DNA of 64,000 nucleotides from Phormidesmis priestleyi Ana (GTDB lineage Bacteria > Cyanobacteriota > Cyanobacteriia > Phormidesmidales > Phormidesmidaceae), in NCBI GenBank assembly GCA_001314865.1, contig LJZR01000014.1:1-64000 (forward strand). The letters run 5' to 3'. Under the pieces are notes generated by a model. It saw nothing but the letters and a program-made list of their open reading frames with translations. It searched no databases and was not told where the DNA came from. Of this stretch, positions 2,824-6,502 are shown in pieces. Made by a program: the position numbers and the translations under genes. The first letter of the stretch is position 1. Every line of letters starts with the position of its first letter.

Positions 2824-3426
2824 ATGTCAATTTCATCTGTAGTCTCTAACTTCGAGCTTTTGGTTAAGCCAATTGTGCAGCCTTCTGCCGATATTTTGGG
2901 CGTGGGGCGTACGGTTATTCAAGGGTATTTTTTGTCTGTTGCAAACCTTAGTAGCCGTGATGATTTCCGTCTACAGCTTAATTTTCGAGCAAAAAGTACT
3001 AATCTTTCATCCTCTCCTTTGCTCGCTTTTTGGGATGTCAATGGTAATAATACGCTGCTATCGCCTGTTTCTAATACGCCTAACAGCCGCGTTTATGAAA
3101 TTAGGTTGCAGCCTCGTGATACTGGGCTGTTTATACTACAGCCCAATGTGGCCGATCGCGATGTGGTGACTGCCGCGAATACAGAAATTCGTGGATATTT
3201 GGAAGCGACTTTGGCAACGCCTTTTGGGGCTAACACCTATAATCTGTTGCTTTCGCCTGAGCACCGAGGGACTTTTTTGCCTAAAGGCTTTGTCATTCCT
3301 GACGGTATTGTTGCAGATACCCCTCAGGATTTTGATCAGTTGGTGTATAGCATCCCAACTGCGCAAGGTGGTACAGCTTTTGAGTTTCAGCAAATTTCAC
3401 CAGATTTTATAAGGTCTGCTGCTTGA
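2824..3426 (+). CDS. Hypothetical protein (200 aa)
   Basis: ATG start with a GGAG motif about 12 bp upstream. The protein is mostly short alternating hydrophobic/polar stretches, suggesting a beta-rich fold. There is no obvious signal peptide, membrane segment or catalytic motif, although it is Asn/Ser-rich as many exported cyanobacterial proteins are. I do not recognise the family. It converges on the HCP gene, with a strong hairpin in the gap. It is believed to be real because of its length, start context and the absence of a competing frame of similar length. Confidence 0.6.
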   Translation: MSISSVVSNFELLVKPIVQPSADILGVGRTVIQGYFLSVANLSSRDDFRLQLNFRAKSTNLSSSPLLAFWDVNGNNTLLSPVSNTPNSRVYEIRLQPRDTGLFILQPNVADRDVVTAANTEIRGYLEATLATPFGANTYNLLLSPEHRGTFLPKGFVIPDGIVADTPQDFDQLVYSIPTAQGGTAFEFQQISPDFIRSAA

Positions 3427-3521
3427 GTTTGTTATTTGATTCGCTATATGGGCAAAGCAGCCCAATGAAACTGAAGCTGCGATCGCTCATTGCATTGCCT
3501 CACATTGCCTCGCATTGCCCC

Positions 3522-3573
3522 ATATCCCCAAGTTTAAGGAATCTGGACTCAACCGCCTTAAACTTGGGGATAT
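3522..3573. repeat. Perfect 18-bp inverted repeat (hairpin) between convergent genes
   Basis: The arm atatccccaagtttaagg (3522-3539) is exactly complementary to 3556-3573, with a 16-nt loop. It sits between the end of the 2824-3426 gene and the end of the HCP gene, where a bidirectional terminator would be useful. No long T-run follows either arm, so it could instead be a small dispersed hairpin element. Three 10-bp copies of a cattgcct-type repeat precede it at about 3490-3519. Confidence 0.7.
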
Positions 3574-3701
3574 TTCTCAACTTGAGGGCTCATTACACAC
3601 TTAGGATATATCTGGGTGACAGTATAGAGCTGTATGTGTATGTCTTGTGGCGTATGTTTTTTTGGAAGGCGCGATCGCTTCTAAACATTAGGCTCTAAAC
3701 A

Positions 3702-4229
3702 TTAGGCGCGATCGCCCTTAATAATGTCGCGCATGATGATGAACTTTTGCTCAAAGTCCACTGCGTTAATGCTGCTGACAATTTCCTGAGCCTGATCAGA
3801 GAGCGGATAGTCACTAGGCACCTCTACAACGCTGCTTTCTGACATTCCTTCACCTAATCTATACCACAGGGCAACCTTGGTTGTGTTGCTCAGCTCGTAG
3901 TAAGCGCTGGTTTGGTCATTGCGCTCTCCCGACAAAACGTCGCGCATAAACTGATACTGCTCATTTTTCGAGCTTTCTTTGAGCTGATCGTACAGCTCCA
4001 CTGAACTATCTGACTCCGCGTTGTCATCAGGGTTCTCAACAGCGGTTGTATCTAGTCCTTCGTAAACCCGCCATAGGACAATGAGCTGATCATCAGTGCT
4101 CAAGTCGCTAAATTGCTGTTTAATATTTGCGGAAGCGTTCTTGGGATCTCTCTTGGAATCTCTCTTGGGATCTCTTTTAGGATCTCCATTAGGGTCTGTT
4201 GTATTCTCTTGATTAGCTGTTTTAGCCAC
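3702..4229 (-). CDS. Helical carotenoid protein (OCP N-terminal domain homologue)
   Basis: Carotenoid-binding helical protein homologous to the N-terminal domain of orange carotenoid protein (OCP); such stand-alone domains (HCPs) quench singlet oxygen or phycobilisome excitation. The core aligns clearly: FSDLSTDDQLIVLWRVY matches the OCP helix with the carotenoid-contacting Trp and Tyr (W41 and Y44 in OCP numbering), and TKVALWYRLGEGM carries the W110-Y111 pair. MRDIIK near the end retains the Arg equivalent to R155. I chose GTG at 4229 (175 aa) because AAGGA lies 10 bp upstream; the longer frame begins only with TTG. The usual OCP N-terminal extension is replaced by a charged linker (RDPK units) encoded by a 12-bp tandem repeat at 4141-4188. 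The loop after the first motif is unusually acidic. The upstream gene encodes the matching OCP C-terminal module. Confidence 0.85.
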   Translation of the reverse strand: MAKTANQENTTDPNGDPKRDPKRDSKRDPKNASANIKQQFSDLSTDDQLIVLWRVYEGLDTTAVENPDDNAESDSSVELYDQLKESSKNEQYQFMRDVLSGERNDQTSAYYELSNTTKVALWYRLGEGMSESSVVEVPSDYPLSDQAQEIVSSINAVDFEQKFIIMRDIIKGDRA

Positions 4230-4410
4230 AGTAGTTAAGTCCTTATCTTGGCAATATATCTTGATAATGTGTCTTGACAACGTTCCAAACAATGCTCAAA
4301 CGGACAATACGGACGATATCTAAACGAGCGAGAAACTGAAAGCTCATCCAGCTCTATACACTGTCAGATCTACACTGTACGCTGTGTGTTTTGGTTCGAT
4401 GTGCCTTGGT

Positions 4411-4466
4411 CGGTTGGTCTCGGTCGGTTGGTCTCGGTCGGTTGGTCTTGGTCGGTTGGTCTTGGT
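4411..4466. repeat. 14-bp tandem repeat in the HCP/CTDH gap
   Basis: Four head-to-tail copies of a 14-bp unit (cggttggtctcggt and close variants) lie in the 421-bp gap between the CTDH and HCP genes (4230-4650). The short ORFs that read through it are artefacts of the repeat. The gap is long enough to hold a separate promoter for the HCP gene, but no promoter was identified. Confidence 0.8.
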
Positions 4467-4650
4467 CGGTGTGCCTTTGGCTAGTATAGAAAACCAGTGT
4501 GTTTATGAATACTTTCAAAAGGCATAACAGTTTTCCCCAACCGCCTCTCATGCCAGAACGAATGAAGTCTTTTTCCTTATCAATTCTTTTGCAGAAGCTG
4601 TTGTGGCGGTAGATGAATCGTTGGTAGTACTTTAAAGTCTCTCTAAAACA

Positions 4651-5103
4651 TTACTGACGATTAATCTTAATCAGCTCTTTAAGGGATGCCAGCAGTTTTA
4701 TGTTGACGGAACTAATGTGGTCAGTGCCATCTATTTCAAACTGCCAAGCAACGTTGACGACAAACAGCAAGTGCTTCACCTTGCCCTTTACTTGAAAGGT
4801 TTTTGTATGCGCTACGGTCTTTTCTTTTGGGGTCTTTTCTTCTAGGCTTTCTTCCTGTATCGCTGTGCAGGTGAGCGGAGTCATTTCCATTTCGCTCGCT
4901 TCGGTAGCGAGGTAGTGTGCGATCGCCTCTCTTCCTACCACGGGCTCTTCGAATGGCGGTACTAGCTGCCCCTGGGGTGCAAAAAGCAGCACCGTTTGCT
5001 GAAAGTCTTTGGCATTGAGCGTATCAAAATAGCGCTGAAGTATATCAGGCATCGTCAAGCTCAATTCCGTAGCTGTGTTAAGCGGAGTAGGGATATGAAC
5101 CAT
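4651..5103 (-). CDS. OCP C-terminal domain homologue (CTDH), NTF2-like carotenoid carrier
   Basis: A 150-residue NTF2-fold protein matching the C-terminal half of orange carotenoid protein. The blocks YFDTLNAKDF, PPFEEPVVGREAI and KLLASLKELI follow the OCP order. VNVAW carries the Trp equivalent to OCP W288, and the Tyr in LQRYF is the likely equivalent of Y201; these two hydrogen-bond the keto group of the carotenoid in OCP. As in known CTDHs, the segment before VNVAW is shorter than in OCP. A Lys/Glu-rich insertion (about residues 95-110) is unusual. CTDHs deliver carotenoid to apo-HCP, and the HCP gene lies directly downstream. ATG at 5103 was chosen over an upstream TTG at 5121; an ATG at 5052 is also possible. 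Confidence 0.88.
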   Translation of the reverse strand: MVHIPTPLNTATELSLTMPDILQRYFDTLNAKDFQQTVLLFAPQGQLVPPFEEPVVGREAIAHYLATEASEMEMTPLTCTAIQEESLEEKTPKEKTVAHTKTFQVKGKVKHLLFVVNVAWQFEIDGTDHISSVNIKLLASLKELIKINRQ

Positions 5104-5365
5104 GATTTTAAAATCTAGCAAGTTTTTCTAGCAGTTTTTAGCAGTCTTAAGAGCTAACGGCATGTCAGCATGGGGCCAAACTTAGTTTTAGCAGCCTAGA
5201 AGATATGGCCCCGTCGCGCCTCTATCTGAATGATGAACTCAGTGATAAACGCTCGGTGATGAACTGATAAAATAGCTGGACGCTTAACGAAAGCTTAGCG
5301 GCAGCGCTAAGTTCTGGAATCAATTTTTCAGAGAAGCTGTTTTTTTAAGTGAGCGGTTTAGGTGC

Positions 5366-6502
5366 ATGGTTTCACCCGTAGGCTCTTCTGAGATCCATCG
5401 CAAAATTATCCGCAAAATCATCCATGTAGATATGGATGCGTTTTATACCTCTGTAGAACAAAGAGACAATCCGGAGCTGCGTGGAAAACCTATTGTTGTC
5501 GGCGGGACACCTGAAAAACGCGGAGCCGTTGCCGCAGCTAGCTATGAGGCCCGCCAATACGGTATTCATTCAGCGATGCCTGCTCGCACCGCTGTCCAAC
5601 GCTGTCCGCATCTGATTTTTTTGCCTCCTCGGTTTGAGGCTTACCGCGCCGTTTCCGAGCAAATTCGAGAAGTCTTTTTTGACTACACTGATCTGGTCGA
5701 ACCGCTCTCTTTAGATGAAGCCTATTTAGATGTCACAGTCGATAAAAAAGGCACAGGCTCAGCGATGCTCATTGCCGAACAAATCAAGCAGCGGATCAAA
5801 ACCCACCTACAGCTCACGGCTTCGGCAGGTGTTTCTATCAACAAGTTTTTAGCAAAAATTGCCTCTGATTTAGACAAACCCGACGGTCTTTCTCTGATTG
5901 CACCTGACCAGGCAGAGGCTTTTATTGAAAAGCTGCCTATAGAATCATTTCATGGCGTTGGCCCAGCAACCGCTGCAAAAATGAAGGCACTGGGCATCAC
6001 CACAGGTGCTGATTTAAAGCGCTGGGAGCGGCAAGAGCTGGTTGCGACCTTTGGCAAAGTGGGTGACTACTACTACAAGGTGGTTCGCGCTCAAGACGAT
6101 CGCCCGGTTAATCCCAATCGAATCCGCAAGTCCATCGGCGCAGAAAAAAGCTTTTTTGAAGATTTGCGCCAGCAAGAAGAGATGGAAGCGGCCTTACTCA
6201 AGATCGCTGAAGAGGTGTATCAGCGATTGGTGAAAAACAAACGTAGCGGCCATACGCTGACGCTCAAAATAAAGTACGACAACTACAGCGTCATTACCCG
6301 CAGCCGCACGCTAGAGAGCCCTATTCAGTCATTTGCCGACATTTTTCTGCTGGCTCAAAGTCTGCTGGCGGCTCATATTACTCCCAATCGACCGGTCAGG
6401 CTCTTGGGCATTACGCTCTCTAACCTAACAGATGCTCAAGGCCACCAACAGCTCAGTTTTGATCTTTTCTCAAAACGAATTGACTCACTAGCAGGCGATT
6501 GA
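5366..6502 (+). CDS. dinB: DNA polymerase IV (Y-family translesion polymerase)
   Basis: Low-fidelity polymerase that copies past damaged template bases. All core Y-family motifs are present: HVDMDAFYTSVEQ near residue 20 with the metal-binding aspartate, the YEARQYGI motif, and SLDEAYLDVT with the catalytic Asp-Glu pair. The helix-hairpin-helix signature GVGPATAAKMKALGI follows, and a QLSFDLF motif near the C-terminus is a likely sliding-clamp binding site. At 378 residues it is slightly longer than E. coli Pol IV (351), mostly at the N-terminus. Neighbouring genes are not repair-related. No LexA-type operator was identified upstream. Confidence 0.95.
   Translation: MVSPVGSSEIHRKIIRKIIHVDMDAFYTSVEQRDNPELRGKPIVVGGTPEKRGAVAAASYEARQYGIHSAMPARTAVQRCPHLIFLPPRFEAYRAVSEQIREVFFDYTDLVEPLSLDEAYLDVTVDKKGTGSAMLIAEQIKQRIKTHLQLTASAGVSINKFLAKIASDLDKPDGLSLIAPDQAEAFIEKLPIESFHGVGPATAAKMKALGITTGADLKRWERQELVATFGKVGDYYYKVVRAQDDRPVNPNRIRKSIGAEKSFFEDLRQQEEMEAALLKIAEEVYQRLVKNKRSGHTLTLKIKYDNYSVITRSRTLESPIQSFADIFLLAQSLLAAHITPNRPVRLLGITLSNLTDAQGHQQLSFDLFSKRIDSLAGD

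Follow-up and report, generated by a model that had tools for sequence, protein, structure and literature searches.

A linked CTDH–HCP gene pair in Phormidesmis priestleyi Ana with a divergent HCP lineage and a plausible role in carotenoid transfer

In Phormidesmis priestleyi Ana, a CTDH gene is followed on the same strand by an HCP gene whose product belongs to a divergent lineage and carries a conserved acidic loop. Both genes lie in a 64,000-nucleotide stretch of contig LJZR01000014.1 (hereafter the window), and the same linkage is found in three genomes. Pocket residues known from OCP are retained in both proteins, and their predicted folds match those of solved HCP and CTDH structures. 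From these features we infer carotenoid binding by the pair, a transfer between its members, the direction of that transfer and the target of the pair. We consider it moderately probable that the CTDH is the donor and the HCP the acceptor, the latter serving as a carrier or antioxidant rather than as a standard phycobilisome quencher.

The CTDH and HCP products

The HCP gene (3702..4229, minus strand) encodes a stand-alone Carot_N domain of 175 amino acids from a likely GTG start at 4229. The listed open reading frame begins at an alternative start, the TTG at 4292; the GTG is more likely than this far TTG because it is preceded by AAGGA. The protein matches Pfam Carot_N at E = 4e-32 (111.6 bits, cut-off 25) and has no C-terminal NTF2 domain. 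Among proteins of solved structure it matches HCP4 (8qx5, 1e-20), HCP2 (6mcj) and the red carotenoid protein of Anabaena (5fcx/5fcy), taken here as HCP1. The AlphaFold model (mean pLDDT 85) superposes on HCP4 (8qx5_A, ranked second) at 1.8 Å over 139 columns and on the first-ranked HCP1-type structure, 5fcx, at 3.6 Å. In OCP numbering, W41, Y44, W110, Y111, P126, Y129 and R155 are kept in the HCPs of all three species that possess this type of protein, namely the window genome and two relatives of the same genus, G001 and G002. M117 is kept in the lineage as well, as is Phe147, which is common to HCP4/5, and position 152 is Ile/Leu in place of Thr.

The CTDH gene (4651..5103, minus strand) encodes 150 amino acids from the ATG at 5103 and is the only stand-alone CTDH gene found in the genome. 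The best solved relatives of its product are the C-terminal part of OCP 7ytf (4e-17) and the Anabaena CTDH All4940 (5e-17); the Pfam matches, SnoaL_2 and NTF2, both lie barely above their cut-offs. The AlphaFold model (mean pLDDT 86) superposes on Anabaena apo-CTDH (6fej_A, ranked second) at 2.1 Å over 129 columns, and on the first-ranked structure, another Anabaena CTDH chain, at 8.0 Å. The OCP residues Y201 and W288 have their equivalents in Y25 and W120. In this stand-alone NTF2-like protein Y25, F26, Y64, W120 and F122 correspond to Y28, F29, Y66, W111 and F113 of Tolypothrix CCP2, respectively, as assigned by motif and spacing without aligning the CCP2 sequence; these five CCP2 residues are reported to be shielded by the carotenoid (PMC7512017). 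The identities of both proteins are thus supported by profile, sequence and fold. A sequence-only reading of this DNA had named the two families, the gene order, the retained W41, Y44, W110, R155 and W288 and a likely Y201, all of which were confirmed, and the profile search and structure predictions that it proposed agree with its assignment.

CTDHs of the CCP2 type (clade 2) carry Cys at 103/105 and a preceding Trp, in place of which the window CTDH has Phe and Leu. The protein shares with CCP1 (clade 1 CTDHs without Cys at 103/105, e.g., the T. elongatus CTDH) the Phe, a short β5/β6 loop and the pocket residues, and differs from them in a Lys/Glu-rich extra stretch in its variable loop. The CCP1 assignment is based on the residue state at position 105 and not on tree placement; this Phe says little about clade 1 when taken alone, because it is invariant in all 30 aligned rows, OCPs included. 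The Lys/Glu-rich stretch, which had been singled out as an insertion, does exist, but the loop has other lengths and compositions in relatives and the stretch is not conserved. The identity of the window CTDH to the 26 other aligned CTDHs is 34-50%, and the CTDHs from five genomes of the genus form a single clade (100/99).

The suggested redox control of the pair is disfavoured as far as the known route is concerned. The disulfide-stabilised dimer of the Anabaena CTDH is reported not to donate carotenoid (PMC6123778). Whereas All4940 is of the Cys type, the window CTDH has Phe at the position of the redox Cys and Leu for the CCP2-specific Trp, so that control by the known disulfide is unlikely and transfer, if any, should not depend on it. 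A redox switch via the known Cys was therefore rejected; the sole Cys of the protein, residue 79, is matched in only one of the six others first aligned (that of the genus genome G003). For Tolypothrix CCP2, however, carotenoid binding and oligomeric state are reported to be unaffected by redox conditions (PMC7512017).

The charged N-terminal arm of the HCP, of DPKR type, is encoded by a 12-bp tandem repeat of four copies with 88% match (4139..4186, minus strand). The repeat had been noticed from the letters and is real, but the arm is absent from both relatives with the same HCP type and was discarded as a functional hallmark. Between G001 and G002, the HCP genes differ at 16/7/66 first, second and third codon positions in 150 codons and the CTDH genes at 33/28/80 in 155 codons. 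This pattern of mostly third-position changes is as expected under purifying selection, and more strongly so in the HCP. For the window HCP compared with its relatives, dS is saturated.

Gene order and surroundings of the pair

The CTDH gene lies upstream of the HCP gene, both on the minus strand and 421 bp apart, and the CTDH-then-HCP order recurs in all three genomes that have the pair (3 of the 7 in the genus). In 58 genomes, this one counted, 29 CTDH matches were judged to be single-domain, after exclusion by eye of the C-terminal domains of OCPs and of fragmentary or unclear frames (G004, G018 C2, G022, G023, G029). When these 29 places were compared with the Carot_N matches on the same contigs, 19 in all, 14 of the CTDHs were found within 2 kb of a same-strand HCP and 15 had none. 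Among the adjacent pairs, the order is CTDH-then-HCP in three (the window genome, G001 and G002) as against HCP-then-CTDH in eleven; the usual order is also present within the genus, in G006. G003 possesses the same type of CTDH without an HCP of the lineage beside it, and the CTDH of G005 lies at a contig end, where the flank is cut off. We also note that at the locus L102 (G046:C1:264700-267100) two Carot_N genes, one of them in a 314-aa frame, precede a weak match to CTDH (2e-9).

The window pair is flanked by DUF1350 and Y-family DNA polymerase genes (Pfam). In G001 and G002 a DUF815 gene lies upstream, and an aldo/keto reductase gene (G002) or a short-chain dehydrogenase gene (G001) downstream. 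As the flanking genes differ between the window and these relatives, the two genes have stayed linked in at least two genomic contexts. On the plus strand, a 200-aa open reading frame at window positions 2824-3426 has no Pfam match at E ≤ 10 and no NCBIfam match at E ≤ 0.01.

The spacer between the two genes (4230..4650, 421 bp) holds a 14-bp tandem repeat of 4.5 copies (4408-4470), which was not seen in the spacers of G001 and G002, and a promoter-like site on the minus strand (4280-4253). Such sites are no commoner than in shuffles (2 observed, 2.5 expected). Terminator-like sites number 7 against 2.2 expected; two of them fall in the 14-bp repeat array, four inside the two coding sequences, and one upstream of the CTDH gene. 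Neither the promoter-like nor the terminator-like sites were taken as evidence. No Rfam match was obtained at E ≤ 0.1 for positions 3300-5500. The spacers of the three pairs measure 315-421 bp, and those of the window and G001 align poorly; spacers of this length make a single transcript for CTDH and HCP doubtful.

A separate HCP lineage with an acidic loop

A profile built from the three HCPs (window, G001, G002) scores its own members at 290-306 bits. Across 388 genomes of the class, with no more than ten candidates scored per genome and matches listed at E ≤ 1e-32, no other candidate exceeds 133 bits. The lineage was found in 3 of 63 genomes in the family scan and in 3 of 7 in the genus scan. 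A related-locus search with the window HCP alone returned no relative, and one with the three-row alignment returned a single locus at the same match place as that of G002.

In trees the three HCPs group together at 100/99, with the HCPs of G164 and G112 (family f15) as sister at 98/98. The grouping persists when the loop columns are removed (100/98, sister 96/95), which bears out the earlier remark that this HCP is divergent. The sister proteins share an acidic loop with the window HCP (net charge -4 to -5) and differ in scoring 132-133 bits on the lineage profile, as compared with 290-306; by eye, no CTDH was seen among frames of at least 110 aa within roughly 1.5 kb on either side of them. 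The three HCPs fall outside the HCP4/OCP group, and forcing them into it is marginally rejected (AU p=0.035). They stand apart from the HCP1 reference (5fcy) in the best trees, a forced joining not being rejected (AU p=0.147), and the HCP2 reference (6mcj) sits in another supported group. In these trees, whose named references cover clades HCP1 (5fcy), HCP2 (6mcj) and HCP4 (8qx5) out of HCP1-9, the sequences support a divergent, separate lineage. Another divergent Carot_N group was observed in relatives of the same family (L070-L078). Judged by eye, all 9 of its proteins have Ala or Ser in place of Y44, and 6 of the 9 have a residue other than Trp in place of W41; they are possibly HCP-like proteins that lack a normal carotenoid tunnel.

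The very acidic loop pointed out in the sequence-only reading is genuine and conserved in the three species. In the window HCP it reads LDTTAVENPDDNAESDSSVE (3996..4055, minus strand, as placed from residues 58-77 of P0001; net charge -7), and it corresponds to OCP positions 47-66. The three HCPs share ENPDDNxESDSS where the consensus of 49 OCP and HCP domains reads ITPAAPGAA, and their net charge is -6 to -7 over 20 residues. The consensus is abandoned elsewhere too, not only in the sister proteins; the loop of the HCP2-like protein at C66 of this genome has a net charge of -2. In the HCP model the loop residues 61-70 have a pLDDT of 58. Loop positions 51, 53, 56, 57, 61 and 65 presumably lie near the carotenoid ring; they are occupied by A, E, D, D, S and V in the window and by R, E, D, D, S and S in G001 and G002. 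These changes, together with the Ile/Leu at position 152, suggest that the carotenoid affinity of the HCP may be low.

The tree placement and the loop bear on whether the HCP is simply a phycobilisome quencher of the HCP4 kind, supplied by its CTDH and divergent only in sequence. We consider such a quencher unlikely: the adjacent CTDH, as for Anabaena HCP4, and the kept R155 and Phe147 are in its favour, whereas the marginally supported position outside the HCP4/OCP group, the reversed gene order, and a further HCP at C9 that already belongs to the HCP4/OCP group argue against it. So does position 60, which is Glu in the lineage and Arg in HCP4/5, where it is described as a phycobilisome contact (PMC12059629).

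The replacement of the loop by acidic residues, and the CTDH of G003 that has no such HCP alongside, would also suit a helical scaffold repurposed without carotenoid binding, next to which a CTDH serving other HCPs lies by chance. The retention of W41, Y44, W110, Y111, P126, Y129 and R155 in three species and the linkage of the pair in differing surroundings make this quite improbable.

A plausible carotenoid transfer pair

The sequence-only reading presented the pair as an OCP split in two. This label is misleading because an intact OCP is encoded elsewhere in the genome (at C7), as are two further HCPs, that at C9 and one at C66 that groups with HCP2. A split form of OCP, in which NTD, linker and CTD make up one protein, was rejected given two genes 421 bp apart and the true OCP. 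Light control of the pair, which had also been proposed, has no evidence, with neither fusion nor linker present. It is highly improbable that the two proteins share one carotenoid in a photoactive heterodimer resembling OCP. In favour of this, the OCP NTD and CTD are reported to form an OCP-like heterodimer when expressed separately (PMC12059629). Against it stand the missing linker, the true OCP in the genome and the loop that precedes the W288 strand, which is four residues longer in the three aligned OCPs than in the CTDH.

The genome encodes a CrtR hydroxylase above the NCBI cut-off and two CrtW-like proteins, which score 228 and 307, below the curated NCBI cut-off of 350 and far above their other matches. 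With CrtR and two CrtW-like proteins encoded, synthesis of a ketocarotenoid is likely. The CrtR β-carotene hydroxylase gene adjoins the HCP gene at C9 and is convergent with it (G000:C9:109067-110412).

In Anabaena, a CTDH is reported to take carotenoid from membranes and to donate it to HCPs (PMC6123778). By analogy with this case, and given the linkage in three genomes, a carotenoid transfer complex is plausible. The pair would be a two-gene module for handling ketocarotenoid, in which the CCP1-type CTDH, as a dimer bridged by carotenoid, would pick up the pigment from the membrane and hand it to the HCP encoded next to it. The latter would house the pigment in its usual tunnel (W41, Y44, W110, R155), with the loop at OCP 47-66 exchanged for an acidic one. 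This exchange suggests that the HCP probably acts as a soluble carrier or a quencher of singlet oxygen, or docks elsewhere than at the standard phycobilisome site. More speculatively, and with little probability in our estimation, the acidic loop might dock the holo-HCP of this unnamed lineage to a new partner that is basic or carries cations, instead of the phycobilisome core, the CCP1 donor of its own providing a second delivery route beside OCP.

A CTDH beside an HCP is already known from the Anabaena CTDH-HCP4 pair (PMC6123778). As with HCP4 and CTDH (All4940) of Anabaena PCC 7120, a Carot_N protein and an NTF2-like protein, each standing alone, are encoded by neighbouring genes, and the folds match. 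The window pair differs in its HCP, which is outside the HCP4/OCP group, and in its Phe-type CTDH; its gene order is opposite to that of the eleven adjacent pairs in relatives. No description of the HCP lineage, the acidic loop or the reversed order was found in the openly licensed literature, outside which the papers that define HCP clades may fall; these three features appear to be new to us, and the type of pair is known.

HCP and CTDH are seen as living relatives of the parts that were fused into OCP (PMC10172135, PMC12059629). What most HCPs do is unclear, and the pair offers a small, testable case for HCP roles other than quenching: a lineage in which the loop near the pigment has changed, the core pocket has been kept, and the CTDH is still adjacent.
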